Assembly: GCA_017621885.1 (NCBI GenBank)
Contig: JAGASD010000004.1
Coordinates: 40,165 to 104,164 of the forward strand
DNA from: Clostridia bacterium
Lineage (GTDB): Bacteria > Bacillota > Clostridia > Oscillospirales > Acutalibacteraceae
Length of the DNA stretch: 64,000 nt
Direction of reading: 5' to 3'
Of the stretch, positions 32,951-48,624 are shown piece by piece (positions within the stretch are counted from its first letter, which is position 1; each line of letters starts with the position of its first letter). The translations under genes were made by a program, and so were the position numbers. Below the pieces are notes generated by a model. The model saw only the letters and a program-made list of their open reading frames with translations. It was not told where the DNA came from and searched no databases.

Positions 32951-33094
32951 TTTATTCGGCTGTATAGGGCGAAGTGACGGCTTTTTCAATAGTATGCGAC
33001 ACAAAATAATGATATTTTACAGCAAGAATGCGACGGGTTTTTCGGACGTTTTTTAGTAATATGATAAAAACATTAATAAGTAGGAGTATTTTTT

Positions 33095-35422
33095 ATGAGT
33101 GTCACAGAAGCGGTGAGGGTGTATCGGGGCAAGGTGCAGGAGAAGGCAAACGGCGATTTTAAGAAAACTGTTTTGGAGCACGGTGTTGGCGTTGTGTTAG
33201 GGCTTCTTTTCAGCTTTTCGGGTTTTTCGAAGGATTTTTCACCGTTTGGTGTGGCTTTCGCGGCAAGCGTTTCAAAGAATTGCACCATAACTGCAGGTCT
33301 TGGGGCTGTTATAGGCTATTTTATAACTCTTGATTCTGTTACGGCTTTGCGCTATACGGCATCGGTGCTTGCCTTGTGCGTTATAATGACCGCTTTAAAG
33401 CCGTTTAAACAGCTTAGGGACAACCCTTTTACTCCCGTGGCGGTTGTGTTTGTGTGCGTTCTTGTAACGGGGCTTGCCATTGCATTTTCGCAAAAAGTTG
33501 AATTTGCTTCATTCTTACTCTGCTTTGCAGAGAGTGCCTTGGGAGGAGCATCGGCATTTGTTTTTTCAAAAAGCCGGAGTGTCCTCAGTCTCAAGGGCGG
33601 ACTTTCAATGCTTACGTCAAAAGAGGCAACGGCAGTTGTTATAAGCATTACTCTTTTGCTGTTATCCTTGAGAGATTTCAGTATTATGGGCGTTTATCCC
33701 GTTCACATTATTACTCAGCTGCTCATTCTTATCTGTGCGTATTATTGCCGCGAGGCAGGCGGTGCAATTGTCGGTATTTGCGGCGGTCTTACAATGAGCC
33801 TCGGGACCGAAAACGTGTTTCTCCTTGGGTTTTATGCCCTTGGCGGACTTCTCGGCGGTGCTTTTTCAGCATTCGGAAGAATTGCTTCATTCGTTGCTTT
33901 TTTGTTCTCGGGTGTTGCGGTTACGGCTATTGCTTTTCAAAAGGCTGAGATTTTACCCGTACTTATTGAAACGGTTGTTTCGGGAATAGCTTTTATAATA
34001 TTGACATTGAAATTTAACAGTAGCCTGGAGCGTGTGTTTCTGCCGGCGGTAACCTCACCTGTAATTGATTCTGTGAAAAGCGGTATTATCGGCAGATTAA
34101 AAAATGCATCCGAAATCTCTTCGGAAATATACACATCTCTTACCACGGTGAACGAAGCTCTCAATAAAAATGACAAAAATGATGTTGAAGATATAATCAA
34201 AAAAACAAGGGAGCAGGTGTGCGGCTCCTGCGGTCTTTACGACGTTTGCTGGAAGGAAGGCAGAGACCAGACGGTAAACAGCTTTCGGTCCTTGCTGGAT
34301 TTGAAAAAGAACGGGATTTACCTTGAATACAAAACAATTCCTCAGCAGTTTGCCTCAGCGTGCATTCGTTCCGAAAACGTCTCAAGCAGCTTCAATAAGC
34401 TATACTCGGAATACAAGCTTAATGAAACAAATCAAAGCAGGATAAGTGAGATATATAACCTTGCATCACAGCAATTTGTAAATGTGTCGGCACTCCTTGA
34501 TTCTGTGTGCGACGATATGAGTCAGGATTTAACGTTTGATATGGATATTGCTGCAAGAGTGAGAGCGGCGGCAGCTTCCTGCGGATTTGAACCGCTTGAG
34601 GCGTGCTGTGTGCTGAACAGTGCTGAAAAAATGACGCTGGAAATAAAAATTAAAATCCCTTATGACAAAACTAACGTTAAGAATTTCAGCTCACAGCTTG
34701 ACGTTATAACAAAACGCCGACTTGAATTGCCTGAAATTGAAATTTACGGGACGTATGCACATTTTGTCTACAAGGAAAAACCAATCTTTAAGGTGGTTTC
34801 TGCAGGTGTTCAGTTCAATGCTGACGGTGAAAGGTTTTCGGGAGACTCTTTCACGACCTTTGAAGATAAAAAAGGCTTCTTTTACGCAATTATTTGCGAC
34901 GGTATGGGCACGGGTACAAAAGCGGCGGTATCGTCAAATCTTGCAGTAACCCTGTTGGAAAAGCTCATAAAAGCAGGTTTCGGCATTCAGTCTTCGGTAA
35001 ACACCGTGAATACGTCGCTTATATCAAAATCCGGGGATGAATGCTCTGTGACCTTGGATTTGGCAGTTTTCGACTTGTTTACGGGAAGAGTTGAGTTCTA
35101 TAAATGCGGTGCGGCGGATTCAACAGTAAAACGAAACGGTAAAATTACCGACGTAGGATTTTGCTCTTTGCCGTTGGGAATAATAAACAAGGCGGATATG
35201 GGCTGCGGTTGCGGAACCTTAAATGCAAGTGACGTTATTGTTATGTGCTCCGACGGTGTAAGACCCGAGGATACAGCTTTTTTAAAACGAAGTCTTAAAG
35301 AGTTTCAAAACGGGAGTGTGCGTAATTTTACAACGGACGTTTGTGAAAATATAAGACGGATGCAAAAAGGAAAGAAAGATGATATGACGGTGCTCACTAT
35401 GGCAATAATAAAAAATGATTGA
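33095..35422 (+). CDS. spoIIE: Stage II sporulation protein E (PP2C-type phosphatase)
   Basis: A 775-residue protein. The N-terminal third holds about ten membrane segments, the middle is the regulatory region with a Cys cluster (EQVCGSCGLYDVCWKEGR, about 370-387), and the C-terminal PP2C domain starts near 570. AIICDGMGTGTKAAVSSN (about 597-614) and VIVMCSDGVRPEDT (about 713-726) carry the metal-binding Asp residues. In B. subtilis SpoIIE dephosphorylates SpoIIAA to switch on sigma-F in the forespore and takes part in polar septation with FtsZ. Its presence implies the capacity, at least ancestrally, to form endospores. clpC follows without a gap. Confidence 0.93.
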   Translation: MSVTEAVRVYRGKVQEKANGDFKKTVLEHGVGVVLGLLFSFSGFSKDFSPFGVAFAASVSKNCTITAGLGAVIGYFITLDSVTALRYTASVLALCVIMTALKPFKQLRDNPFTPVAVVFVCVLVTGLAIAFSQKVEFASFLLCFAESALGGASAFVFSKSRSVLSLKGGLSMLTSKEATAVVISITLLLLSLRDFSIMGVYPVHIITQLLILICAYYCREAGGAIVGICGGLTMSLGTENVFLLGFYALGGLLGGAFSAFGRIASFVAFLFSGVAVTAIAFQKAEILPVLIETVVSGIAFIILTLKFNSSLERVFLPAVTSPVIDSVKSGIIGRLKNASEISSEIYTSLTTVNEALNKNDKNDVEDIIKKTREQVCGSCGLYDVCWKEGRDQTVNSFRSLLDLKKNGIYLEYKTIPQQFASACIRSENVSSSFNKLYSEYKLNETNQSRISEIYNLASQQFVNVSALLDSVCDDMSQDLTFDMDIAARVRAAAASCGFEPLEACCVLNSAEKMTLEIKIKIPYDKTNVKNFSSQLDVITKRRLELPEIEIYGTYAHFVYKEKPIFKVVSAGVQFNADGERFSGDSFTTFEDKKGFFYAIICDGMGTGTKAAVSSNLAVTLLEKLIKAGFGIQSSVNTVNTSLISKSGDECSVTLDLAVFDLFTGRVEFYKCGAADSTVKRNGKITDVGFCSLPLGIINKADMGCGCGTLNASDVIVMCSDGVRPEDTAFLKRSLKEFQNGSVRNFTTDVCENIRRMQKGKKDDMTVLTMAIIKND

Positions 35423-35433
35423 AGGATAGTTTT

Positions 35434-37860
35434 ATGTATAAGTTTACGGGTTTTACCGAAAGTGCCAATAATGCGTTGAATTATGCTGTTGAGACGGCAG
35501 AAAATATGGGGCATACTTATATCGGAAGCGAGCATATTCTTTTGGGACTGCTCTCTGATACTAAAATGGTTTCTGCATCCATTCTGATCGGGAAAAGAAT
35601 TAATCTGAAAAAAGCTGAGGAGCATCTCAAGAGCATTGTGGGCGTCGGTATGCCTACGAATCTTACTCCTGATGATATTACTCCCCGTTGCAGAAAAATT
35701 ATAGAAAATGCAATAACCTTGGGTGCTTCTCATCCTATGGGGCAAGCGGGCACGGAGCAGCTTCTTAATGCGCTTGTGAAAGAGCCCTCTTGTTCGGGCA
35801 GTAAGCTGCTTGTGGCAATGGGTGTGCAGCTCAGCGACGTTGTCGGCGGTATCGGCAGTGACAGCGAAGACTCCGATGCACGTGTGATGAAAAACGGAAA
35901 AGCGCAAAAAACCAATCTGAAAAAATACGGAAAGGATTTAACAACGCTTGCGGAAAATAATCAAATAGACCCGGTTATAGGAAGGGATACGGAAATTTCA
36001 AGGGTAATAGAAATTCTTTGCAGAAGAACTAAAAATAACCCTTGCCTGATAGGTGAGCCGGGGGTAGGTAAAACAGCTGTTGCAGAGGGTCTTGCCTTGC
36101 AGATTGCAAAGGAGGATGTGCCCGAGCTTTTAAAAAACAAAAGAGTTATAAGCGTAGACCTTACCTGTATGGTTGCAGGTACAAAGTACCGCGGTGATTT
36201 TGAAGAACGCATCAAGAATATTATAGAAGAGGTCTCAAAGGACGGTAACGTGATTTTGTTTATTGATGAGCTTCACAATATTGTGGGGGCAGGTTCGGCA
36301 GAGGGTGCCGTGGATGCGGCAAATATATTAAAGCCTTCCCTTGCAAGGGGCGAGCTTCAGGTAATCGGTGCAACCACTATTGACGAATACAGAAAATTTA
36401 TAGAAAAGGATGCGGCGTTGGAAAGGCGCTTTCAGACTGTAAACGTAGAAGAGCCTACACCCGAAAATGCGCTTTTGATGATAAACGGTGTTAAAAGCTA
36501 CTACGAAAAGCATCACGGGGTCGAAATAACCAAAGAGGCAATGGAGGCGGCTGTTGAATTAAGCGCGCGATATATTACAGACAGATTTTTACCTGATAAA
36601 GCCATAGATTTAATTGATGAAGCAGCGGCAAGAGTGCGGCTTAAAGGTTATACACCGCCCGACGAAATAAAAAAGCTCGAAAAAACGGTGCGAAAAATAA
36701 CAGAGCAGAAATATTCTGCTATTGATAATCAGGATTTTGAAGCTGCCGCAAGATTCAGAGATGAAGAAAAAGAGTCTTTGAAAATGTTGAAAACCAAAAA
36801 ACAAGAGTGGCAGGATTCTTGTAAAAAGGATGTGAAAAAGGTCACAAAGGAGCACATTGCTTCAGTTGTTTCAATCTGGACGGGTGTTCCTGTGTCAAAA
36901 CTAACCAAGGAGGAAAGCCACAGACTTCTTAATCTTGAAGAGCTGCTTCATAAAAGGGTTATAGGTCAGGATGAAGCGGTGCAATCGGTGGTGAAAGCCG
37001 TCAGACGAGGCCGTTCTGTTTTTAAAAACCCAAAAAGACCCATCGGTTCTTTTTTGTTCCTCGGTCCTACGGGTGTCGGCAAAACTGAATTGACAAAAGC
37101 GCTCGCAGAGTGCCTTTTCGGGTCGGAGCAAAGCATTATCAGATTTGATATGTCCGAGTATATGGAAAAGCATTCCGTTTCACGCCTTGTTGGCTCGCCG
37201 CCCGGATACGTGGGATTTGAAGAGGGGGGACAGTTGACCGAAAAAGTCAGACGGCACCCGTATTCAATCGTACTTTTTGATGAAATTGAAAAAGCGGATG
37301 CCGAGATTTATAATATTCTCTTACAAATTCTTGAGGATGGTATTCTTACGGATTCCAACGGCAGAAGGGTTGATTTTAAAAACTGTGTGCTCGTTATGAC
37401 CTCCAATATCGGAGCAAAGCTTATATCTGAGAACAGGAATGCTCTGGGCTTTGTTGACAGCGCAGACGCCAATAAGGACAAGGAACGCATAAAAACACTT
37501 GTTGCAGATGAGGTTAAACGCTTTTTTAAGCCCGAATTTATTAACAGAATTGATGAAATGATTGTTTTTACCTCTTTATCTGAAAAAGAAGTGAGAAAAA
37601 TTGCAGAAAAAATGCTTGATGAATTATCGGAAAGGTGTGTTAAAGGCGGAATAGAAATCAGCTTCAGCGAAAGCGTGGTGGATATGATTGTGCGCAAGGG
37701 CTTTGACCCTACCTACGGTGCAAGACCTTTAAGACGGGCAGTTACATCCGAAATAGAGGATGTGCTTGCGGAAAAACAGCTTAAAGGCGAAATAAAAAGC
37801 GGTGAAAAGCTTGTTTGTCACTTTGATGATGAAGAATTGAAAATAGAAAAAATATCGTGA
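35434..37860 (+). CDS. clpC: ATP-dependent Clp protease ATP-binding subunit ClpC
   Basis: An 808-residue AAA+ unfoldase. Two Clp-N repeats occupy about 1-145. Nucleotide-binding domain 1 has Walker A GEPGVGKT (about 207) and Walker B VILFIDELHN; a middle domain contains a UVR-like motif (FEAAARFRDEEKESL, about 430-445), typical of ClpC rather than ClpB. Domain 2 has Walker A GPTGVGKT (about 544) and Walker B SIVLFDEIEKA, with NSNIGA sensor-type residues as TSNIGAKLI. It would unfold substrates for ClpP. ATG 35434 follows GAAGGA by 7 bp; the spoIIE stop is 11 bp before it. No ctsR, mcsA or mcsB is present, unlike the usual clpC operon. Confidence 0.94.
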   Translation: MYKFTGFTESANNALNYAVETAENMGHTYIGSEHILLGLLSDTKMVSASILIGKRINLKKAEEHLKSIVGVGMPTNLTPDDITPRCRKIIENAITLGASHPMGQAGTEQLLNALVKEPSCSGSKLLVAMGVQLSDVVGGIGSDSEDSDARVMKNGKAQKTNLKKYGKDLTTLAENNQIDPVIGRDTEISRVIEILCRRTKNNPCLIGEPGVGKTAVAEGLALQIAKEDVPELLKNKRVISVDLTCMVAGTKYRGDFEERIKNIIEEVSKDGNVILFIDELHNIVGAGSAEGAVDAANILKPSLARGELQVIGATTIDEYRKFIEKDAALERRFQTVNVEEPTPENALLMINGVKSYYEKHHGVEITKEAMEAAVELSARYITDRFLPDKAIDLIDEAAARVRLKGYTPPDEIKKLEKTVRKITEQKYSAIDNQDFEAAARFRDEEKESLKMLKTKKQEWQDSCKKDVKKVTKEHIASVVSIWTGVPVSKLTKEESHRLLNLEELLHKRVIGQDEAVQSVVKAVRRGRSVFKNPKRPIGSFLFLGPTGVGKTELTKALAECLFGSEQSIIRFDMSEYMEKHSVSRLVGSPPGYVGFEEGGQLTEKVRRHPYSIVLFDEIEKADAEIYNILLQILEDGILTDSNGRRVDFKNCVLVMTSNIGAKLISENRNALGFVDSADANKDKERIKTLVADEVKRFFKPEFINRIDEMIVFTSLSEKEVRKIAEKMLDELSERCVKGGIEISFSESVVDMIVRKGFDPTYGARPLRRAVTSEIEDVLAEKQLKGEIKSGEKLVCHFDDEELKIEKIS

Positions 37861-37924
37861 ATTACACTTGGGTAAAAGCAAATTTCTATTTTTGACTTGC
37901 CATTAGCAGAATGCTGAAACTTGT

Positions 37925-37957
37925 AAAGAGTTGCCAATTGACGGCAACTCTTTTTGT
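37925..37957 (+). terminator. Terminator after clpC
   Basis: AAAGAGTTGCC and GGCAACTCTTT pair around AATTGAC, followed by TTG. Confidence 0.85.
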
Positions 37958-38095
37958 ATATTATTTTTCTTTGATTTAATTGAAAATCGCAATAAAAAAT
38001 AGTATTATTTTATTGCAATAGAATAATTGTAAATAATCAAAAAAAGTAGTATAGATTCGGGGAAAGTTTTGTGTGAAAAAAGTAAGACACAAAAA

Positions 38096-38324
38096 CAATC
38101 AGGGGACGGTTCTGTGATTGAACTGGAAATCCTTGAGAATTAAAGTGTTTCGTCGTTTTTTAATTAAAATCAGGGGCGGTTTATTGGGTGTTTCACCAAT
38201 ACAACCCCAATCACAGAACCGTCCCATGATTGTCTTTTGCGACAAATTTCTAGATTAACGGGAATCAGTCTTAGTGTCATTAGGGGAATTCTGAAATAAC
38301 ACACAGAACCGTCCCCTGTGTTAT
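38096..38324. repeat. ~230-bp dispersed repeat, copy 1 (GGGGACGG family)
   Basis: Starts caatcaggggacggttctgt and ends accgtcccctgtgttat. Inside, the two ends of the first half (aatcaggggacggttctgtg and cacagaaccgtcccatgatt) form an inverted repeat. Copy 2 at 41674-41903 is almost identical (a few substitutions). The GGGGACGG palindromes are a known type of dispersed repeat in Clostridia; similar sequences elsewhere are tied to REP-type transposases, none of which is seen here. Its 3' end abuts the truncated RHS frame. Confidence 0.85.
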
Positions 38325-40565
38325 TCTTACGGAACAGGTGAAAACCGTAACAGAATCAATCGCATTACCTATGGAAATGGCGATTATATTGATTATACAT
38401 ATGCCGATAACGGAAACGTTACTGCTATAAAGTCATATTCCAACGAAAACACGGTAACGTCAGATTACGAATATACTTATGATGATAACGGAAACGTATC
38501 TAAAATTAAGAATGTAACCGAAAACACCGAGGTACGGTATGCTGAAAACAACACTTCAATAGTGCTTCTTAACGGTGACGGTGAAACAGATGACGTTGTG
38601 CTTTATTCTGCAGAAATAAACGAAGATGGAGAAACTATTGAAACTTTAGGCGGAATAATGTATACTAAAGGTGAAAACACAACTTCCGGTGATATTGAAA
38701 AAGGTACCTCAACATTAACTTCCAATACTACAAGCTCTAACAACAGCTACGATTTCGTTTCCGAAAACGACTATTTTGGAAGACAAACCAAAAGGGAACT
38801 TTCAAAAGTTATATCTAATACCGATAATGTGAAAGAAAGTTTAAATTTCCAAACCTCGTATAATTACAAAAGCTATTCAGGTAACAGGACATCTTCTCTT
38901 ATCAGTAGTTATCGTGCTGTTTTAAACCGTACAAGAGAAATTCAGGCAGATGAGACAAATACAACCCAAACACAAACTTTATACGATTGGGAATACTTGT
39001 ATACATATGATGCAAACGGAAATATCGTTGATCTTTCTGTTAACATCCCTGATGATAATTACGGACTTGAAAATGTTTCGGTTTGTAGTTATATATATGA
39101 CGAAGCCGGTCAGCTTGTGCGTGAAAACAATGCTTATACAGAAAAAAGCTATGTGTATGTTTATGACAAAGGCGGAAACATAACTCAAAAAATCGAATAT
39201 GAATATTCTGAGGATGCGTTGGCAGAACCACTTTCAACAGTAAATTACACTTATGACAGTACTTGGAAAGACAAATTAACAGATTATGGTGATACTGCTA
39301 TCACTACTGATGAAATGGGTAACCCTTTAAATCATACAAGTATTGATTATTTAGGTAACAAAGTTGATGCAACACTCGAATGGAACGGAAGACAGCTTTC
39401 TGCTGTAATAATAAACGGTCAAAGAACCGAGTATACGTACGATTCAAACGGTATGCGAACCAAAATGACGGTTTATAATACAGACTCGAATACCGTTAAC
39501 GCAGTTTATTATTACGTTTGGGATAATGATAAATTGCTTGGGTATATAGTTACAAATGCAAACGGTGTGACTGAACATACGGTAAAAATGTTGTTTGACA
39601 ACACAAATGATTCTGTAGGTTATGAATTGTATTCGGCGGCAGATAATACTACAAAATCATATTTCTTCCTTAAAAATTTACAGGGTGACATAACCAACGT
39701 ATTCAATGAAAACGGAGCTGATATTTTACAGTACGCTTATGATGCGTGGGGTAATGTAACTGCAATTTTTGACAAAAGCAGTTACGAGGAGTTTGTTGAA
39801 TCAGCTGAAGCTGCTGTTTTCACTCCTATTACTTACCGAGGTTATATGTATGACCAGTATTCAGGTCTGTATTATCTTCAATCAAGGTACTATAACCCCA
39901 CTTACGGTAGGTTTTTGAATGCTGATGATACTTCTATTCTTAAACAAACTGCCGGGGAAATTCACGGTGCTAATTTATTTGCTTATTGCAATAATGCTCC
40001 AATACATTTAATTGACCCAACAGGAAGAACAGGGGAAGGTGTGTTGCCTAATGAGAGCGAAGAATTTACAATAGCAGATGGTATAATTCTAATACTCTTA
40101 GTAGGAGCTTTATTAATTCTTTTATATTCTATAGTAACGTTGTTTGTAAATTTGATTTTACCTTGGATAAAAAATGCTTTGATTGAAATTGTTTCAGAAA
40201 TTCGTCATAAATTGGGTATAGATGTACCTAAAACATTAACTGAACAAATGGAACGGGCTAAAGTTAAAGCCGATAATAGAGGACGTAATGATAAAACAGT
40301 AAAACACCATATTGTTGCAAAAAATGATAGGAGAGCAGAAGATTCTCGCATTATTTTGCATAATCATGGATTGTCCGAACACTCTCCTCAAAATATTGTT
40401 ACAATGAACAAAACCGTCCATTGGTATTTACATACAACATTATATCATTACGCAGTTAAAGATTATTTATCCAATGCAGAAAAATCTGTTAGTGATGACA
40501 GTGCAAAAGATGCAGCTGTTCTCGTGGCGTTATTAACATTGAAAGCGGAGTTGGCGATTTTATGA
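38325..40565 (+). pseudogene. 5'-truncated RHS/YD-repeat toxin with C-terminal AHH-type HNH nuclease domain
   Basis: The frame is open from the edge of the repeat at about 38325, in-frame YGTGENRNRINRITYGNGDY being classic RHS/YD sequence, and has no ATG there. The first usable start is GTG 38562 (667 residues), without a clear ribosome binding site. Several YD repeats (YDDNGNVSKI, YDANGNIVDL, YDSNGMRTKM) lead to the RHS core end RGYMYDQYSGLYYLQSRYYN and GRFLNADD. After DPTGRTGEG come a hydrophobic stretch (about 505-535) and a C-terminal domain with KHHIVAKNDRRAEDSRIIL, NIVTMNKTVHWYLHTTLYHY, fitting the AHH nuclease family. The secretion-bearing N-terminus is missing, so it is a broken or orphan toxin module. 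The stop overlaps the next start (ATGA). Confidence 0.8.
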
Positions 40566-41461
40566 AGTTAGAAGACAAAAATATTCAATTTATCGAAAAT
40601 ATAAAAAATAGCAATATTGCTATTTCTCAAAGCGGAAAGTATCTTGTTCGTTCCAATAATCAATTGGTTTGGTTGATGGATTTTGTGACGCGAGAAATAA
40701 TTATTCACAAAAGATTTAAATCATATATTGTACGAGGCATTACCCGTGATGAAAAATTCTGCCTTTTTACATCTAAAGGTGAAAAAGAGATAAATGTTTT
40801 GTCTTTGCTCACTTTAGAAGAAGTGGCGTCAATATCCACCTCACATATATTTGATTTGAAATTCATTTCAAACGATTCCGTGATGTTTTATGAGCGAGAT
40901 AATGCCATAGATAAAAGTTTTGTGAAAATGTGGAATTTCAAAACAGGAGAAATACGAATTGTTTATACCTATGACAGGGTTTCTAAGTGTGGTAACAGCG
41001 TTTTTTTTGATAAAGATAATTTGGTTGTTTTGAGTCAAAAGGATTGCGGTGAAGTTACATGCCGAACTTTTAACAAAAGTAATATTGAATCGTTTAAAAT
41101 AAACGAAGGGTATGATGCTTCTAATTTTTCTCAATTGCGTGGAACAAAGTTGTTAGCTACTCGAAGAGAAAACGGAGTTAGTGTAGGAGTATATGATATA
41201 CTGAGTAATAATTATTCCGTTATAAGCAAAATAAATGCAATTCATTTAAGGTGGATAACGGATTGTTTATTTTGGTTTGTTGAACTAAAACCCGGTTGTA
41301 ATTTTTATTCAGGTATTATGGATTTATCCGGTAACATCCTTTGGAAAGCGAAAGGCTCGTATCATTTTGTGAATTCAAGTAATGACAATTACTTTGTTTT
41401 TGATTCTTGTTGTGATGTTTTTCTTTTTAAAAAAATTGAAAATGACAAGGAACAATCATAG
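40562..41461 (+). CDS. Candidate immunity protein, beta-propeller-like
   Basis: A 299-residue protein with no signal peptide or membrane segment. It is built of repeated beta-strand units of about 40 residues (for example AISQSGKYLVRSNNQLVWLM, FVKMWNFKTGEIRIV, GVYDILSNNYSVISKINAIH), as in WD40-like beta-propellers with perhaps six or seven blades. I know no named family for it. It starts inside the stop of the toxin gene (4-bp ATGA overlap), the usual place for the immunity gene of a polymorphic toxin, and a cytosolic protein suits a nuclease toxin. Function is inferred from position. Codon use is more AT-rich than in the housekeeping genes, a hint of transfer. Confidence 0.65.
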   Translation: MKLEDKNIQFIENIKNSNIAISQSGKYLVRSNNQLVWLMDFVTREIIIHKRFKSYIVRGITRDEKFCLFTSKGEKEINVLSLLTLEEVASISTSHIFDLKFISNDSVMFYERDNAIDKSFVKMWNFKTGEIRIVYTYDRVSKCGNSVFFDKDNLVVLSQKDCGEVTCRTFNKSNIESFKINEGYDASNFSQLRGTKLLATRRENGVSVGVYDILSNNYSVISKINAIHLRWITDCLFWFVELKPGCNFYSGIMDLSGNILWKAKGSYHFVNSSNDNYFVFDSCCDVFLFKKIENDKEQS

Positions 41462-41467
41462 CAATCA

Positions 41468-41516
41468 GAGGACTGTTCGAAACCACTGATTGGTTCCGTC
41501 CCCTGATTTTTCATTC
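41468..41516. repeat. Degenerate GGGGACGG palindrome after the immunity gene
   Basis: aatcagaggactgttcg is mirrored by gattggttccgtcccctgatt, a decayed form of the ends of the ~230-bp repeat. With the TTTTT behind it, it may also act as terminator. Confidence 0.5.
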
Positions 41517-41618
41517 CTTGGGTTAACCTTGGGGTATTGTGTAGCACAGGGGACGATTAGCGTGAAAATCTCTTCAGAAGAGAGTAAAAAAGGCAACAAA
41601 AAGGAAAGCCCATAAAAA

Positions 41619-41673
41619 ATGAGCGAAAATATTGAAAGAGAAGAATCAACTTTGATACTTACTCATAGCGGAT
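41619..41673 (+). pseudogene. Possible gene start cut off by repeat copy 2
   Basis: ATG 41619 follows AAGGAAAG and encodes MSENIEREESTLILTHSGYN; the frame then enters the repeat and stops. It may be the N-terminus of a gene interrupted by the repeat. The evidence is only the ribosome binding site and the hydrophilic start, so confidence is low. Confidence 0.25.
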
Positions 41674-41903
41674 ACAATCAGGGGACGGTTCTGTGATTGA
41701 ACTGGAAATCCTTGAGAATTAAAGTGTTTCGTCGTTTTTTAATTAATATCAGGGGCGGTTTATTGGGTGTTTCACCAATACAACCCCAATCACAGAACCG
41801 TCCCCTGATTGTCTTTTGCGACAAATTTCTAGATTAACGGGAATCAGTCTTGGTGTCATTAGGGGAATTCTGAAATAACACACAGAACCGTCCCCTGTGT
41901 TAT
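41674..41903. repeat. ~230-bp dispersed repeat, copy 2 (GGGGACGG family)
   Basis: Same sequence as 38096-38324 with few changes and the same orientation, so the pair flanks the toxin-immunity module as direct repeats 3.6 kb apart. Its 3' end (ccgtcccctgtgttat) abuts a second toxin-like frame. Confidence 0.85.
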
Positions 41904-42038
41904 ACTGTTACCAAAAAAATGAATGCCGCAAAAAAAATTTACGGAAACTTGTATTATATGTTTAAAGTGTCAAAGGAAAGTTCTCTCAATGGTTGGTATG
42001 CATATTCGGTTGTTACAAAAGGAGTGGTCGAATTATGA
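41904..42038 (+). pseudogene. C-terminal tail of a second toxin-like gene
   Basis: From GTT 41907 the frame reads VTKKMNAAKKIYGNLYYMFK, VSKESSLNGWYAYSVVTKGV, VEL and TGA (42036-42038). No start codon or ribosome binding site belongs to it, and its 5' side is the repeat. The stop overlaps the next ATG as ATGA, exactly as in the first cassette, so it is best read as the last 43 codons of a lost toxin. The domain is too short to identify. Confidence 0.55.
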
Positions 42039-42856
42039 TAAGGAAAGTAGTTTTCGGTTTTGCAGGTTTGTTTTCTATGTTGGCAATTACCCTTTCGTTT
42101 TTTCGTAATACATTGGTTTTGTCTGAATATTCACAAACAAGCTTTTCGGAATTGATATATTATTCACCGCTAACATTAGTTATAATATTTTGTGTTTTCG
42201 TCTCAGCTTTTTTTATTGTTCTTGGTATATTACTACATATTAAGCCGTCTATTCTTTTGAAGAAAAAACAACTTGTTGTTGTATGTAGCACAATATTGGT
42301 ATCCGCTTTATTTATTACAATAGTAGGTGCCATTTATTCTATATCATCAGCCAAACAAATCGAGCGTTCGAAGAATGTTTTTGATTTTGTTGAAGAGCAA
42401 CCTAATGAGGAAATACCATCGGAATATGAATTTGTTTTGCCATTTTTAACTGACATAAATGATTATTATTCATTTAAAACTATTTCAACCAAGGATGCGA
42501 AGTATCTTCATACGCAGAATTATGGTTCTAATGAGAAGTCTATGATTGTATATGATGTTGAATTTTTTAAGTCTGAAAATCGTTCTCTTTTACAGCAGTA
42601 TGTTCTTCAAAAAACAGAGCCTGCGGTGAAATCCGGTAGTAATCTTACTCTTAAAGGTGAAACGAAAGTTGTTGAAGGAGTTAAATGCATAGCATACCAA
42701 CAAGACAACTATCTTCAAATAAGAATAATTGAAAACGATAACTATTTTTCAATTGTTTTTGATAATTTGTATACTGTTTCGGATTGTACAGTCACAGATT
42801 TTGAAAAAATAGCTGTCGAAATTTATTTATCCTTGAGAGATCAATCAAATGGATAA
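42035..42856 (+). CDS. Membrane protein, probable orphan immunity protein of the second cassette
   Basis: A 273-residue protein with three membrane segments (about residues 5-22, 37-65 and 76-100: VVFGFAGLFSMLAITLSFF; LTLVIIFCVFVSAFFIVLGI; VVVCSTILVSALFITIVGAI), then a domain of about 165 residues with no recognised family, probably outside. The start at ATG 42035 has AAAGGAG (42018-42024) 10 bp before it and overlaps the preceding toxin-like tail by 4 bp. A longer frame from 41993 runs through that tail and is less likely. A membrane location suggests a toxin that acts at or through the membrane, but this is inference. Confidence 0.6.
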   Translation: MIRKVVFGFAGLFSMLAITLSFFRNTLVLSEYSQTSFSELIYYSPLTLVIIFCVFVSAFFIVLGILLHIKPSILLKKKQLVVVCSTILVSALFITIVGAIYSISSAKQIERSKNVFDFVEEQPNEEIPSEYEFVLPFLTDINDYYSFKTISTKDAKYLHTQNYGSNEKSMIVYDVEFFKSENRSLLQQYVLQKTEPAVKSGSNLTLKGETKVVEGVKCIAYQQDNYLQIRIIENDNYFSIVFDNLYTVSDCTVTDFEKIAVEIYLSLRDQSNG

Positions 42857-43026
42857 CACAGGGTGGATAACACAGGGGACGGTTCTATGATTGACGCTTA
42901 ACCCCTTGAAAATTCCCAATTCCCATCAAATTCAATTAATTAAATCCAACGAGCTTAGCGGTGTTTTCTTCGGAATTCACCGCTATTTTTGATTTGTGTA
43001 GAAGAGCGATATAGTGGCTGTTGTTT

Positions 43027-43425
43027 CTACCTCTCTGGCTTAATAGAGGGGGACCATTGCACAAACAATTGTTGTTTGGATAAGCTTGAATCCGGGGTGT
43101 TAATCAAATGGTTAAATTAAGTTGGGGCGAATGGTGGAGAGTTCCCGATGCTTTAGCATCGTGGAAGCAACGCTTCCATTGACATAAATTTAATGTTATT
43201 GATATTTTATTTGTGAGTAAAAATTTATTGTTCTTATTGTTTTATCAATATGGTGAGTTTATTACAATTGAATCTTACGATTCAACGACACTCCTATGGT
43301 CGTGTCGGGAACTCTCCACCGCTCCGTCAGACTATATTTTAAACACAATTCAAGACACGCTTGTTACAAATTTCAAGAGAAAAATAATTATAAGGCGGTC
43401 CCCATCTCTTAAGCCAGAGAGGTAG
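43027..43425. mobile_element. MITE-like nested-palindrome element, copy 2 (399 bp)
   Basis: Ends are 43027-43055 (CTACCTCTCTGGCTTAATAG...) and 43397-43425 (...TTAAGCCAGAGAGGTAG), imperfect inverted repeats of 29 bp. The inner pair GGTGGAGAGTTCCCGA (43133-43148) and TCGGGAACTCTCCACC (43305-43320) is identical to that of copy 1 at 4094-4488. Small hairpins gatgctttagcatc and ggaagcaacgcttcc follow the left inner arm. A 70-codon frame inside it is a chance product of the palindromes. Confidence 0.75.
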
Positions 43426-43858
43426 ATCTTCAATAAGTATCTTTTTCGCTTGAAAGCTTACTGTTCATGGACATTATGTTAAGTCCTCTTGCGGTGCCCA
43501 AAATTGTTTGCTCGTTGTTCACTTCGCACAATTTTGACCGCTGCGCCAACTCTCACTCCCTGTATCGCCCACAGGGCGCGGTCGTGCTCCTTGCCCCCTC
43601 TCTTAAGCCGGAGAGGTAGAATAACCGCTAATATATCACCCGTTTCAAGTAGTTTTCAGAACAATTAACTACAATAAAGTTTAGGCAATTGTCCCTTACG
43701 CTGGTGTATCGTTCAGTAACTGCAATTTTATTTATCTATAACACAAAACTAAAATTTTGTTATGTATCGTGCTTTATCATTTTGCACGTAAACGTAACAA
43801 ACCGAACAGGACAGGAGGTGTGGTCAGGGGAGAAAATACATCATAAGTTTAAACTTCT

Positions 43859-43884
43859 GACGGGAAATTTCTCCCGTCTTTTTT
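43859..43884 (+). terminator. Hairpin terminator upstream of the LRR gene
   Basis: GACGGGA (43859-43865) pairs with TCCCGTC (43872-43878), then TTTTTT. It lies before the LRR promoter and after no recognisable gene, so it may end read-through or a small untranslated RNA. Confidence 0.6.
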
Positions 43885-43906
43885 CTTTATTTATAGTATA
43901 GTTTTA

Positions 43907-43935
43907 TTGACTTTTTTCTATGAAAAAACTATAAT
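43907..43935 (+). promoter_or_regulatory. Sigma-A promoter of the LRR protein gene
   Basis: TTGACT (43907-43912), a 17-bp spacer and TATAAT (43930-43935), 41 bp before the start codon. Confidence 0.8.
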
Positions 43936-43976
43936 GAAATATATATTATCAAAATCAGAAAGAAAGGGCGATTGCA

Positions 43977-46376
43977 ATGAAAAAAAAGAGGATTTTATTT
44001 GTATTATTGAGTTTGCTTCTCATTTTTACCATGGTTTCATCGTTGGCTGTTCCGGCTTCGGCTGCAGTGGCGAACACGTCATTTAAGGGTGAAATGCAGG
44101 ATACCGCAATACCGGGCAGCGGGAAGGTTTATTGGGAATATACGTTCAATCGCTCTACCGGCAGAGCTTCTTTGAGAATTTGGGGTAACGGTTATATGCC
44201 AAACGGCACTGATCAGGACTGGTTTGCCGTTCAGCAAAGTGCCCAGTGCTATATCTACAACGTCACAATTGAAGAGGGCGTTAAAAGCATTATGTCAAAC
44301 GCCTTTGCAGGGGAGATATATCTGAAGAATGTAACTCTTCCCTCCAGTATTGAGCTTATTGGTGAAGGCGCATTTTCATATACCGCTATTGAAAAGTTCA
44401 ATATTCCCGCAAAGGTTAAGTATATTGACTCCTCTTGTTTTTCGGGCTCGCCCATAAGTGCGTTTACGGTTGATTCCGCTAACCCTTATTATAAAAGCTA
44501 CAACGGTAATATTTATTCTAAGGATATGACTGAGCTTGTTGCGGTTGCTCCGCTTAATTACAGCGGTGACGTTTGGAACGGCTTTAGCTTTCCTTCAAGC
44601 GTTACCTCAATCGGTAAATACGCTTTTATGGGCTGTCCTATTGAATCCGTAACAATTCCCGGTCACATAAAAGCCATAAAAAAAATGGCTTTTGCAGGTT
44701 GCTATGACCTTAGCTCAATAGTTATTTGTAACGGTGTTGAAGGCGTATATGACAGCGCGTTCCTCTCGTGCGATTCACTGAGAAACGTTCAGCTTCCTGC
44801 AAGTGTTAATTATCTGGGCTTCTGTGCTTTCGGTTACACTTATGACTACGATTATGCTGCCCTTAAAGATATGCTGGATTATAAAAATATTCCGTACGGT
44901 TCAATTAATGAGAATAATTTTGAGTATTATGCAAGCCTTACGGGCTTTGGCGCAGATGCTTTTATATCCTGCGTTACAGACAGAAGATTTCATATGTATG
45001 CACCTGTCGGCTCTGTCGGCGAAAGATATGCAAGAAACAATGAGCTCGATTATTACCGTTCGGCTGAGCTCCTCAGCGCAACAAGCGGTTATGACGGTGT
45101 TGTTCTTAAATGGCGTGATTCTCCCGAGGTTTCACACTACAATATATACCGCAAGGAAAACGGCACGTGGCGGCAGATAAACACACGCACAAACGGCTTC
45201 ACAACTTACCTTGACAGCGATATTTACGAAGCAGGGGACTTTTCCTATGCTTTAGAGGTTTGTTATTATTCAGGCTACAAGCATTTTGATAAAATCGGTA
45301 TTAATACGCATTACGTGCCTGCTCCCGTTCTTAAATCAATTGCAAACAATGTGGGCGGACTTCGTGTTAACTGGTATGGGGTAATCGGTGCAAAATATTA
45401 TTATGTATACAGAAAAGCAGTGGGCGAAAGCTCGTGGAAATATCTTAAATGTGTTCCGGGCAACGTGAATACTTACCTTGATAACACCGCATCCAACGGC
45501 AAGGATTATATCTACACCGTGCGCGCTTATGACGGAAAAGGCACAAGCGGCTTTGATGCAAACGGACTCAGATTGCGCTACGTTGAAGCACCCGAATTCA
45601 AGGTTTATAACAATACTTCAACAATTGCACTTTCCTGGAACAAGGTGGAAAATGCCGATTATTACAACGTTTACAGAAAGGTCGGCTCAGGCAGTTGGGT
45701 GCTGTTAAAAACACTGGGCGGAAGCTCCGCGTATTACAGAGACGATACCGCAAGCCGCGGCGGTACATATACCTACACGGTCAGAGCAATTAATGACGGT
45801 GTTTACAGCTGCTTCTATCCTCAGGGAAAAACCTTAAAATCAATTGATGCTCCTATGAGTATAAAGCTTGAAAACAGAGTTTCAGGCGTAATGCTCAATT
45901 GGAATAAATGCGCAGGTGCAGACGGCTACTACGTTTACCGCAAAACGGCTTCTGGCAGTTGGTTGAGAATTGCAACGGTTACGGGTAATGCAAACGTTAC
46001 TTATCTTGATACTGCCGCAAAAAGCGGTCAGACCTATACATATACGGTTAAAGCCTTCAGCGGTCCGTATCACAGCACTTACGTGCTTAACGGTGTTTCA
46101 ATAAAATTCCTCGCTACACCGAAAATTTCTTCTGCAGTAAGCACTAAAAACGGCGTGAGCCTTAAATTTAACACCGTTTCAGGTGCCGACGGATATTATG
46201 TTTACAGAAAAACCGTGACGGGCACTTGGGTGCTTATCGGTAAATCGGCTGCAGGGGCTTACATTGATACCGCTGCTCAGAAGGGTGCCTCATACATTTA
46301 TACAGTAAGAGCTTATAACGGCTCAACCCGCAGCAGTTATTACGCAAACGGAAATACAGTAAAGGTTGTATATTAA
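43977..46376 (+). CDS. Secreted leucine-rich-repeat (BspA-like) protein with five Fn3-like repeats
   Basis: A 799-residue exported protein. A classical signal peptide (basic start, hydrophobic core, VPASAAVA; about 1-32) is followed by BspA/LRR_5-type repeats at about 85-300 (SIELIGEGAFSYTAIEKFNI, SVTSIGKYAFMGCPIESVTI). From about 360 to the end come five repeats of about 88 residues with the pattern GV.L.W..V.GA..YYVYRK...GSWV......YLDT....G..YTYTVRAY, which resemble fibronectin type III domains. No LPXTG, SLH or other anchor is seen, so it is probably released or loosely bound. Such proteins often bind host or plant surfaces. The unknown gene at 46380 follows after 3 bp. Confidence 0.85.
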   Translation: MKKKRILFVLLSLLLIFTMVSSLAVPASAAVANTSFKGEMQDTAIPGSGKVYWEYTFNRSTGRASLRIWGNGYMPNGTDQDWFAVQQSAQCYIYNVTIEEGVKSIMSNAFAGEIYLKNVTLPSSIELIGEGAFSYTAIEKFNIPAKVKYIDSSCFSGSPISAFTVDSANPYYKSYNGNIYSKDMTELVAVAPLNYSGDVWNGFSFPSSVTSIGKYAFMGCPIESVTIPGHIKAIKKMAFAGCYDLSSIVICNGVEGVYDSAFLSCDSLRNVQLPASVNYLGFCAFGYTYDYDYAALKDMLDYKNIPYGSINENNFEYYASLTGFGADAFISCVTDRRFHMYAPVGSVGERYARNNELDYYRSAELLSATSGYDGVVLKWRDSPEVSHYNIYRKENGTWRQINTRTNGFTTYLDSDIYEAGDFSYALEVCYYSGYKHFDKIGINTHYVPAPVLKSIANNVGGLRVNWYGVIGAKYYYVYRKAVGESSWKYLKCVPGNVNTYLDNTASNGKDYIYTVRAYDGKGTSGFDANGLRLRYVEAPEFKVYNNTSTIALSWNKVENADYYNVYRKVGSGSWVLLKTLGGSSAYYRDDTASRGGTYTYTVRAINDGVYSCFYPQGKTLKSIDAPMSIKLENRVSGVMLNWNKCAGADGYYVYRKTASGSWLRIATVTGNANVTYLDTAAKSGQTYTYTVKAFSGPYHSTYVLNGVSIKFLATPKISSAVSTKNGVSLKFNTVSGADGYYVYRKTVTGTWVLIGKSAAGAYIDTAAQKGASYIYTVRAYNGSTRSSYYANGNTVKVVY

Positions 46377-46379
46377 ACT

Positions 46380-46934
46380 ATGTTTTTTAAAAAGAAGAAA
46401 AAAGAAGAGCAAAAGGGTTATGTTTTTCGTCCCCGTGATTATGACAGGGACGAAAGAATAGAATTACAGAAAATTGTTTCTTCAATCCCTGTTACAAGAA
46501 AAATGTTGAAATATGAGTTGTTGGTAACAGCTACTAACAATTATGTTGTTAAAAACATAAAAATAGGCTCAACCGCCGCTCATAACGTGAACACAACAAA
46601 GCATCCTCAGGTGTTTTTCCAATCGTTAAAGGATTTGATTTCAAGCACCGAGAATTTGCAGAAGGTTGAACCCTATTGGCGGTTTGAGGGGCACACTCCC
46701 ACAGAGCAATTGGAGGATTTGAACGAGCGCAAGGATAAAATAATACGCGGTTTCATTTATGAGTCCTTTACAGAGCTTGTGGAGAAAATAGAAAAAACAA
46801 ATAATCCCAATGCCAAACAAAAGCTTTTTGACGATTATCAGAATCAGCTTATGTTTAATATTGAGATTTGCGGTGAAGAGAATTTTGAGTTTTTCAAAGA
46901 CTTGTGCCGTGATAAATTGAATATAACAGAATGA
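46380..46934 (+). CDS. Hypothetical protein between the LRR gene and fhs
   Basis: A 184-residue hydrophilic protein that begins with a strongly basic run (MFFKKKKKEEQKG), has no membrane segment, and is probably mostly helical in the second half (LEDLNERKDKIIRGFIYESF, TELVEKIEKTNN). I recognise no family. It starts 3 bp after the LRR stop, without a strong ribosome binding site, and ends 13 bp before fhs, so it may be cotranscribed with either. Confidence 0.65.
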   Translation: MFFKKKKKEEQKGYVFRPRDYDRDERIELQKIVSSIPVTRKMLKYELLVTATNNYVVKNIKIGSTAAHNVNTTKHPQVFFQSLKDLISSTENLQKVEPYWRFEGHTPTEQLEDLNERKDKIIRGFIYESFTELVEKIEKTNNPNAKQKLFDDYQNQLMFNIEICGEENFEFFKDLCRDKLNITE

Positions 46935-46947
46935 AGGAGAATAAAAA

Positions 46948-48624
46948 ATGGCTTATCTTACGGATATTGAAATTGCGCAGAGCTGTAAAATGAAACCTAT
47001 CGGTGAAATTGCCGCAAAGGTTAACATAGGTGAAGAATATCTTGAGCCCTACGGAAGATATAAAGCAAAAATTGATTTATCTTATATCAAAGAATGTAAA
47101 AAAGAGGGCAAGCTTGTTCTTGTTACTGCAATTACACCTACACCTGCAGGTGAGGGTAAAACTACTACAACAATCGGTCTTGCAGATGCAATGAACCTTT
47201 TGGGATATAAAACAGCTGTGGCTCTTCGTGAGCCTTCATTGGGCCCCGTTTTCGGCATTAAAGGCGGTGCAGCAGGCGGCGGATATGCTCAGGTTGTGCC
47301 TATGGAGGATATTAACCTTCACTTTACAGGTGACTTCCACGCAATCGGTGCCGCAAACAATCTTCTTGCCGCAATGCTTGATAACCACATTCAGCAGGGC
47401 AATGCTCTCGGTATTGATACAAAGAGAATTACCTGGAAGCGCTGTGTTGATATGAACGACCGCCAGCTTCGTAATGTTATTGACGGTCTCGGCGGAAGAA
47501 TGCAGGGTGTTCCCCGTGAGGACGGCTTTGATATTACTGTTGCAAGTGAAATTATGGCTGTTTTCTGCCTTGCTACATCTGTAACCGACCTTAAAGAGCG
47601 CCTTGCAAGAATTGTTGTCGCTTATGACTACAACGGCAAGCCCGTTACCTGCGGTGACATTAAGGCTCAGGGTGCAATGACTGCACTTCTTGTTGATGCA
47701 GTTAAGCCCAACCTTGTTCAGACTCTTGAAGGCACACCTGCATTTGTTCATGGTGGTCCTTTCGCAAATATCGCACACGGCTGTAACACCGTTCTTGCAA
47801 CAAAAATGGCTATGTCAACTGCTGATTATGCTATTACAGAGGCAGGCTTCGGTGCTGATTTGGGAGCAGAAAAATTCCTCGACATCAAATGCCGTGCGGC
47901 AAACCTTAAACCCTCTGCAGTTGTTATGGTTGCAACTGTTCGTGCTCTTAAAATGCACGGCGGACTTAAAAAGGACCAGTTGGGTGAAGAAAATATTGAA
48001 GCCCTTGAAAAGGGTATTCCCAATCTTCTTCGTCACGTTTCGAATATTAAAAACGTATACAAGCTTCCTTGTGTTGTTGCTGTTAACCGCTTCCCCACAG
48101 ACACAGATGCTGAAATTGATTTCATCATTGCAAAATGTAAAGAATTGGGCGTAAATACCGTTCTTTCAACTGTATGGGCTGACGGCGGCAAGGGCGGTAC
48201 GGAGCTTGCTAAAGAGGTTGTCCGTCTTTGCGAGGAGGAGGACAATTCAAGCTTCACCTTCTCTTACGATACGGATTCATCTATTGAAGAAAAAATTGAA
48301 GCAATCGTTACCAAGGTTTACGGCGGCGACGGTGTGGACTTTACAACAAACGCTAAAAAACAGCTTGATTCCCTTAAAGCTGACGGCTTCGGAAACTTAC
48401 CCATTTGCGTTGCTAAAACCCAGTACAGCTTCTCTGATGACCCCTTGAAATTGGGTGCTCCCGAGAATTTCCGTGTTACCGTAAGAAATCTCAAGGTTTC
48501 CGCCGGTGCAGGCTTCATTGTTGTGCTTACAGGCGATATTATGACAATGCCCGGTCTTCCCAAGAGCCCTGCCGCAGAGAGAATTGACGTTGACGAAAAC
48601 GGCAAAATTACAGGACTTTTCTAA
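46948..48624 (+). CDS. fhs: Formate-tetrahydrofolate ligase
   Basis: A 558-residue enzyme that makes 10-formyl-tetrahydrofolate from formate, ATP and THF. The P-loop-type segment [20 protein letters not shown] (about 62-81) and [20 protein letters not shown] (about 93-112) are the family signatures, and [14 protein letters not shown] and [12 protein letters not shown] are also present. It feeds one-carbon units to purine, Met-tRNA formylation and, in acetogens, the Wood-Ljungdahl pathway; no other gene of that pathway is in the window. AAGGAG (46934-46939) precedes the ATG. trpS follows after 21 bp. Confidence 0.96.

Follow-up and report, generated by a model that had tools for sequence, protein, structure and literature searches.

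The window analyzed here, a 64,000-nucleotide stretch of the genome of a Clostridia bacterium (contig JAGASD010000004.1), carries at positions 38325 to 41461 the C-terminal end of an RHS toxin and a putative immunity gene. This module is a 5'-truncated orphan RHS tip cassette, made up of the end of the RHS core, a hydrophobic segment, an AHH domain and an overlapping gene. The 5' cut of the orphan frame lies at the edge of a hairpin formed by a repetitive extragenic palindromic (REP) sequence, as do the cuts of many displaced RHS tips in the same genus and of some in other genomes. Comparison of these sequences suggests, with a probability of about 0.6, that tips are displaced C-terminally and that REP hairpins are preferred sites of the non-homologous joint, a REP-associated tyrosine transposase (RAYT) perhaps being involved. 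Coordinates are positions in the window; joint coordinates at the compared loci (L numbers) are given in the RHS sense. The genome to which the window belongs is G000, the genus comparison set consists of 22 genomes, and 38 genomes outside the genus were used for the REP pattern.

The orphan frame (38325-40565) contains 746 open codons, its stop being at 40563-40565. Its first part (38325-40016, plus strand) is a C-terminal fragment of an RHS/YD-repeat carrier (PF05593, TIGR03696) that has no start codon at its 5' end. The frame extends back into a repeat, up to an in-frame stop at 38292-38294, and the first ATG, GTG or TTG after this stop is the GTG at 38562; a later internal start is possible. 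The original prediction had held that the N-terminal part needed for export is missing and that the frame opens at the edge of a repeat, and the lack of a start codon before GTG 38562 bears this out. The export part is not on the same gene, since the frame starts at the REP edge, and no full-length rhs gene is found upstream of the module, where the neighboring gene is clpC-like. The lack of a start signal at the 5' end makes it probable that the toxin is silent.

The RHS-associated core (TIGR03696, E 1.9e-17 in a profile search) precedes the tip, and the tip matches the AHH family, confirming the predicted change from RHS core end to a new C-terminal domain. An AHH-type domain (40257-40520, plus strand), predicted to be an HNH/EndoVII nuclease, was likewise anticipated correctly: PF14412 matches the last 182 residues with E 2e-10 and 41.0 bits, and the whole frame with 37.6 bits, compared with a gathering cut-off of 22.3 bits. 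The HH, N, H and Y residues are invariant among the five tips compared. The tip has the HH, N, H, H and Y of the published Tox-AHH motif and resembles the Tox-AHH toxins also in having an RHS carrier and an adjoining immunity gene, as those toxins are described by Zhang et al. (2012; PMC3482391, PF14412). It differs from that description in the lysine that replaces the alanine or glycine of [AG]HH before HH, and in an immunity protein that resembles a beta-propeller. Between the RHS core and the nuclease is a hydrophobic stretch (40069-40170, plus strand, placed by eye), possibly a translocation segment, which is also present in the related tip of genome G007. A sequence search of the PDB with the tip gave only weak matches, the best being gp32 (E 0.17). 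No relative of the tip was found in plasmids and phages, nor in a pattern scan of genome contigs. The family samples comprised 300 genomes for the tip and 398 for the immunity profile, with the window's own genome in both and G007 in neither; the tip is matched in four of the 300, own genome included.

A complete version of the gene occurs in the congener G007. Its contig C4 encodes a 1992-residue RHS frame with a signal-like N-terminus, which matches residues 2-745 of the window frame at 61% identity, tip included, and has about 1240 additional N-terminal residues. The domains of this homologue are DNRLRE, RHS and AHH, with DUF6531 just below its cut-off. A 298-residue frame (292 residues from the ATG at the overlap) overlaps its stop. 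The two tips are 43% identical over 181 columns and the two downstream genes 44% over 298. The existence of this full-length gene, whose tip and immunity gene are related to those of the window, shows that the window frame is a 5'-truncated orphan. The case that would have argued otherwise, an intact full gene lacking the toxin tip in related strains, was not found in the genus; the G007 gene has the tip. In a second G007 copy the HH part of the tip has been lost at a REP cut and the immunity gene is intact, being 79% identical to that of the first copy. In G304, which belongs to another genus of the same family, a distant AHH tip adjoins a distant relative of the immunity protein.

The cassette is flanked by two direct copies of a 233-nt repeat (38095-38327 and 41674-41906), which are 98% identical. 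The first 139 nt of the unit form a REPIN, a pair of inverted REPs, and a solo REP follows. In the first copy the REPIN occupies 38095-38233 (30-nt inverted repeat, 93%) and the solo REP, with an exact core on the minus strand, occupies 38296-38325, at the 5' joint of the orphan frame. In the second copy the REPIN is at 41674-41812, with 26-nt arms that are 100% complementary, and the solo REP is in the same place of the unit (41874-41903), at the 5' joint of a second cassette. The same end of the repeat thus adjoins two different sequences within the window. The unit of the second copy folds as single-stranded DNA with a z-score of -5.9. A third REPIN copy, 97% identical over 134 nt, is situated on contig C2 of the same genome near another RHS orphan.

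A joint was scored as having a REP if a REP core, with one mismatch allowed, ended between -15 and +30 nt upstream of the 5' end of the RHS segment. For the automatic set, tblastn located truncated RHS segments in REP-bearing genomes; their internal 5' ends, 20 in number once segments at locus or contig edges were excluded, served as the joints. Nine of these 20 joints have a REP core in the interval, compared with a mean of 0.35 and a maximum of 4 in 20000 draws of random positions within the same loci; with exact cores only, the count is seven of 20 compared with 0.24 expected. The automatic list scores L245 4456 and L276 3604 as misses, although by inspection these joints are at a REP (about 4608 and 3664). 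Thirteen joints, chosen by hand from 20 inspected ones, were compared at the DNA level with uncut relatives; L245 3640 and 6322, L247 1179, L244 10431, L268 4011 and 6366, and L275 10318 are outside this hand set. By our reading of the DNA alignments, six of the 13 are no more than about 6 nt from the end of a REP stem (L007 5208, L009 173, L242 13185, L243 7503, L248 11902 and L270 3631), a fraction that, given the hand choice, is not an unbiased rate, and four, the window joint included, could not be placed at a resolution of a few nucleotides. A seventh, L242 16195, is within about 25 nt of the end of a REP stem by the same reading. Hairpin energy was evaluated at 28 hand-placed joints, 19 from REP genomes and nine from a second group (eight from G010 and G019, one from G007, which carries REPs). 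It is unusual at the 19 joints (combined p 1.3e-6), in a test that misses real REPs in short windows (L270, L276, L008) and is weaker than the REP count.

Joints of the same kind occur outside the genus. RHS sequence is found within 3 kb in 12 of 80 REP loci from other genomes, a raw count from the 80 loci listed among 119 stretches. In six of the 12 (L186, L161, L152, L142, L138 and L130) the distance from a REP core to the start of a truncated RHS segment is 9 to 61 nt. Of the others, L159 is identical to the congener G001, L157 is ambiguous, the segment in L122 starts at 116 nt, and L127, L148 and L189 have none. On a single contig of an uncultured Eubacterium sp., two RHS fragments (L161, 173-399 and 1533-1832) have a near-identical start after a REP. 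Within the genus, L243 (G020:C26; 6541-11541, minus strand) contains a 1666-residue RHS frame that lacks about 340 N-terminal residues and starts in a REP hairpin; it directly follows another RHS gene and a small gene.

REPs and RHS genes are associated more generally in the genus. The exact REP core pattern is present in 16 of the 22 genomes, with a reversed control giving none, and in eight of the 38 genomes outside the genus, which have one to three exact cores each. RHS cores are present in 15 of the 22 genomes and Y1 transposase matches in nine, seven of them over the cut-off. The 137 REP sites of the genus form 71 clusters, 21 of which are within 5 kb of an RHS core compared with 0.55 expected; with the window's own genome left out, the numbers are 14 of 63 and 0.42. 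The stems covary, being 85% complementary in the genus loci compared with 66% when partners are shuffled, and 85% compared with 60% in the loci of the other genomes. Of the 17 exact cores in the window's own genome, 15 are on the RHS-bearing contigs C2, C17, C58 and C62, and the remaining two are at the edge of C28. Four RAYT genes of congeners are flanked by REPs on both sides, the nearer REP being 81-94 nt from the domain match, and the RAYTs of G006:C41 and G011:C9 are about 1.3 kb from an RHS core. A REP follows within 60 nt of the stop in 17 of 107 open reading frames, which by reading are mostly small genes beside RHS frames; one is a RAYT. REPs also stand between small accessory genes arranged in runs outside RHS loci, namely in L038 (G011:C1), L048 (G018:C4) and L044 (G014:C53), and some of the frames there start or stop inside a REP, as if REPs bounded single-gene cassettes more widely.

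The module is situated in an island of about 6 kb (37861-43976, with approximate edges at about 37956 and 43900) between the clpC-like gene and the gene of a BspA-type leucine-rich repeat protein. The product of the upstream gene combines Clp_N, UVR and AAA domains, an arrangement that we take to be that of ClpC, and the gene at 43977 encodes BspA-type leucine-rich repeats. Fourteen congener clpC loci of 1.8-8.5 kb each were compared. In six of them the homologue of the 43977 gene comes directly after clpC, with no island, and in the five of these for which the clpC end is listed the gap is 83-115 bp; in G006 a homologue of the 46380 gene is next, and seven have differing neighbors. No RHS sequence and no exact REP core were found in any of the 14 stretches. 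The empty site in congeners indicates, at the level of sequence, that about 6 kb were inserted behind clpC in the lineage of the window's genome. RHS pieces occur elsewhere in that genome on contigs C2, C31, C58 and C62. C31 encodes the N-terminal 1577 residues of a carrier, up to the contig edge, in a stretch that is common to C58 and C62; the same RHS stretch is uncut at C31 and REP-cut at C62, and the DNA of the two is 94% identical. RHS matches outside the window are 38-51% identical, the one with the best E-value being 40% over residues 137-490 and that on C2 being 51% over 112 residues.

In the scheme preferred here, the RHS core would supply the homology by which a new tip-immunity unit enters, and the REP palindrome 3' of the immunity gene would set the trailing end of that unit. 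This end would either be joined into the resident gene or represent the closing joint of a circular intermediate, and the old tip would stay downstream without its N-terminus. The joining enzyme might be a RAYT, a Y1 transposase that would act on REP hairpins in single-stranded form; alternatively, host recombination at the hairpin might make the joint. Lying between two direct 233-nt REPIN repeats, the 3.6 kb unit could be excised or copied as a whole, and this would account for its location apart from a carrier; its immunity gene could protect against the RHS toxins of neighbors. Everything here past the anatomy of the module is what we infer from sequence. In a bolder version, which we regard as doubtful, RHS tips of Clostridia would be true mobile cassettes with REP hairpin ends, cut and joined by a RAYT-type single-strand transposase at the hairpin edge. 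Acting there, the enzyme would make or insert tip circles, and REPINs would be for polymorphic toxins somewhat as attC sites are for integrons.

Several observations weigh against a boundary set by REPs. For eleven of the 20 automatic joints the test interval is free of REPs. Inspection revealed, in some of them, a REP slightly beyond the interval, a degenerate REP or a different hairpin and, in three (L268 4011, L275 10318 and L245 6322), none of these. An RHS core is absent from the 5 kb around 50 of the 71 REP clusters. The RAYT of the window's own genome is a fragment only, at the edge of contig C50, scoring 20.7 of the 23 bits needed and followed by cores with one mismatch; the PF01797 scan of that genome gave no match. 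No circle, transposition or pair of strains before and after an exchange was seen. Orphan tips also occur in G010 and G019, congeners without the exact REP core, so that REPs are favoured, not required, at joints. The second group of nine joints has no excess of hairpin energy (p 0.63). The joints L007 3243 and L008 2916 (hand alignments) and L247 1179 abut a hairpin without a REP core, which points to hairpins in general rather than to a RAYT. This last point leads to a possible alternative, to which we give less than even odds: hairpins of any kind, resembling intrinsic terminators and lying 3' of the immunity gene, would fix the joint via host replication, exonuclease or repair, with no role for a RAYT. 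The three non-REP hairpin joints and a degenerate one at L244, the unusual hairpin energy at the 19 joints of REP genomes, and the REPs that follow closely behind gene stops are all consistent with it. A general effect of hairpins would nevertheless not lead one to expect the nine joints without hairpin excess, nor the RAYTs flanked by REPs near RHS cores in G006 and G011. We consider it quite unlikely that the joints arose by ordinary C-terminal displacement, in which homology-facilitated illegitimate recombination would take place at random positions and REPs would come later, the seams being non-essential spacers. Such displacement is an already published model (PMC5361080, PMC2935791), REPs are mainly intergenic repeats, and the orphan tips of G010 and G019 are as it would have them. 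However, it does not predict the near-flush joints (up to about 6 nt) or nine REP joints among 20 where 0.35 are expected, and a later REP insertion is not expected exactly at the joint. In the window, moreover, the same end of the 233-nt repeat adjoins two different sequences.

A full-length RHS gene beside clpC might instead have lost its N-terminal part in place, by a deletion adjacent to a REP, with no movement of a cassette. The flush REP joint fits such a deletion, as does the pair of stretches on C31 and C62, one uncut and one REP-cut. We hold it to be unlikely, as the 14 congener clpC stretches have neither RHS sequence nor the exact REP core, and the arrival of a whole gene followed by a deletion would be needed where displacement requires one arrival. 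That the module is a decaying pseudogene without function is also improbable. The missing start codon near the 5' end, the lost carrier part and the reduction of the neighboring cassette to 43 tip codons would agree with decay, but the 746 codons are open, the AHH residues are kept and the immunity gene is complete with its own start. The second G007 copy, with its HH motif lost and its immunity gene intact, is as expected if immunity is the part that is kept. Promoter-like sites in 37700-44100 exceed those in shuffled sequences (39 compared with 25.1, sd 4.6), although none is tied to the cassette genes. Neither of the two fates proposed originally is borne out: the open frame and preserved AHH residues do not show a decaying remnant, and, with the other RHS matches of the genome being 38-51% identical over parts only, a ready recombination partner for which the fragment would be a reservoir is not evident. 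The suggested search of the genome for a full-length RHS gene was successful as far as the N-terminal carrier half at C31, and otherwise returned only these partial matches.

The hairpin with the arms CAAAGGGTGATTT..TTTCACCCTTTG is the joint of the RHS fragments L007 3243, L008 2916 and L247 1179, which come from two species. The three have this hairpin joint in common, and their upstream parts and tips differ, as judged by eye. Joints therefore seem to be kept and reused.

The putative immunity gene (40562-41461, plus strand) encodes 299 residues. As predicted, it overlaps the toxin gene by ATGA, at 40562-40565, and it has its own start with GGAG upstream. Degenerate REP-like palindromes, recognized by eye, are located directly 3' of its stop (41462-41511). 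The ATGA overlap and the tip and immunity neighbors in G007 and G304 indicate that this is probably the cognate immunity gene. The product matches no Imm-series Pfam family. It matches the THOC3 beta-propeller model with E 4e-4, far below the cut-off, and members of its family match other beta-propeller models weakly (WDR3, 1.2e-3; COPA/B, 6e-4), again far below the cut-offs; two relatives that were scanned gave no Pfam match. In a sequence search of the PDB with the immunity profile the best match was only weak, THO complex subunit 3 (E 0.27). Comparison of the profile with itself shows weak internal repeats (p 0.001), which are suggestive only. The fold is, on these profile matches, probably a beta-propeller. 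The profile matches four of the 398 family genomes, own genome included. According to the 2012 census (Zhang et al. 2012, PMC3482391), beta-propellers had not yet been found among immunity proteins, and relative to that census an immunity protein of this kind would add a new fold.

The second cassette, behind copy 2 of the repeat, is cut more deeply than the first. What appears to be a C-terminal remnant of its toxin tip, 43 codons and a stop (41907-42038, plus strand), overlaps by ATGA a second putative immunity gene with N-terminal hydrophobic segments (42035-42856, plus strand), which was assigned from its position and this overlap. A REP with an exact core (42873-42891) closes the cassette 19 nt after the stop. 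The remnant has no relative at E 0.01 in a blastp search against the RHS loci, and the 42035-42856 gene has no family match over a cut-off. A resemblance to an RHS tip and immunity gene of G020, seen by eye, was rejected: the gene scores 63, while the highest-scoring of 300 shuffles reaches 82, and nothing was found by blastp at E 0.01.

The module itself and the displacement of tips are of known kinds; what appears to be new is the boundary favoured at hairpins. Tip displacement is established (PMC2935791, PMC5361080, PMC3150448). The orphan rhs-CT/rhsI and cdiA-CT/cdiI modules described by Poole et al. (2011, PMC3150448) are similarly composed of a toxin fragment without initiation signals and an immunity gene, with the fragment found fused to a full-length gene elsewhere. 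Unlike those orphans, as far as they are described there, the present module is away from a full-length RHS gene and bounded by REPINs, and its congener carrier has a signal-like N-terminus. The model of Jackson et al. (2009, PMC2935791) requires a closed circle of core, tip and neighboring genes. The dissociated tip arrays with partial cores are alike in both systems, but the passages of that paper dealing with displacement name no end-setting sequence, whereas REP hairpins are the favoured ends here. Kirchberger et al. (2017, PMC5361080) proposed a homologous anchor and an illegitimate end for effector-immunity displacement, and their homologous 5' anchor, non-homologous 3' end and immunity genes kept in arrays have counterparts here. 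Their account, in its relevant parts, gives no evidence of an integrase and no specific sites, whereas many joints here are at palindromes. REPIN/RAYT (TnpA-REP) systems (PMC6006769) share with the present case inverted REP pairs and a transposase gene flanked by REPs. The present copies differ from those described there in being enriched at RHS tip-immunity seams and bounding protein-coding cassettes. Palindromes and recombination sites also surround the genes of the Neisseria vgrG effector-immunity clusters (PMC10210955). Those clusters are of the vgrG/T6SS type, and their elements are inverted repeats of DUS (uptake sequences), terminators and dif, not REPs; no analysis of joints was found in the portions of that paper available. 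The cassette, with its direct 233-nt repeats, was also compared with a composite transposon, and the likeness to an integron cassette is in layout only. No report linking REPs or RAYTs to RHS tip joints was found in the literature searched, which mostly did not extend to subscription papers.

It is still an open question how polymorphic toxins exchange tips: the published models, in the parts seen, require a circle or an illegitimate end without naming a sequence that would set it. With a joint that prefers a REP hairpin, the question can be tested directly; such a joint would also give RAYT/REPIN elements a possible benefit to their host, and provides a sequence rule for finding orphan toxin-immunity pairs. 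Mobile cassettes cut by RAYTs, if real, would supply the unit boundary missing from displacement models and a use for RAYTs at the level of the host. Loose tip cassettes at the edges of mobile hairpins in a gut bacterium may be how bacteria shuffle toxins of the antibacterial type.

Some further features of the island and the genome are worth recording. No transposase was recognized in the island, where the small open reading frames were only partly scanned, and an Rfam search of 33000-48000 gave nothing. A second family of palindromic repeats (TCTACCTCTCTGGCTTAATAGAGGGGGACC), with inverted and direct copies, occupies the right part of the island (43026-43055, 43397-43426 and 43594-43621). Terminator-like sites in 37700-44100 number 10, compared with 3.9 in shuffled sequences (sd 2.2), and several of them are the REPs themselves. 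About 93 bases are the same at the right end of C2 and the left end of C28 of the window's genome, suggesting that these contigs may be neighbors or end in one repeat. In L036 (G000:C50; 3-551 and 3190-4087), 2.6 kb past the RAYT fragment, there is a gene for a barnase-like ribonuclease (PF00545, E 4e-12), which is overlapped by a barstar gene (PF01337, E 8e-20).

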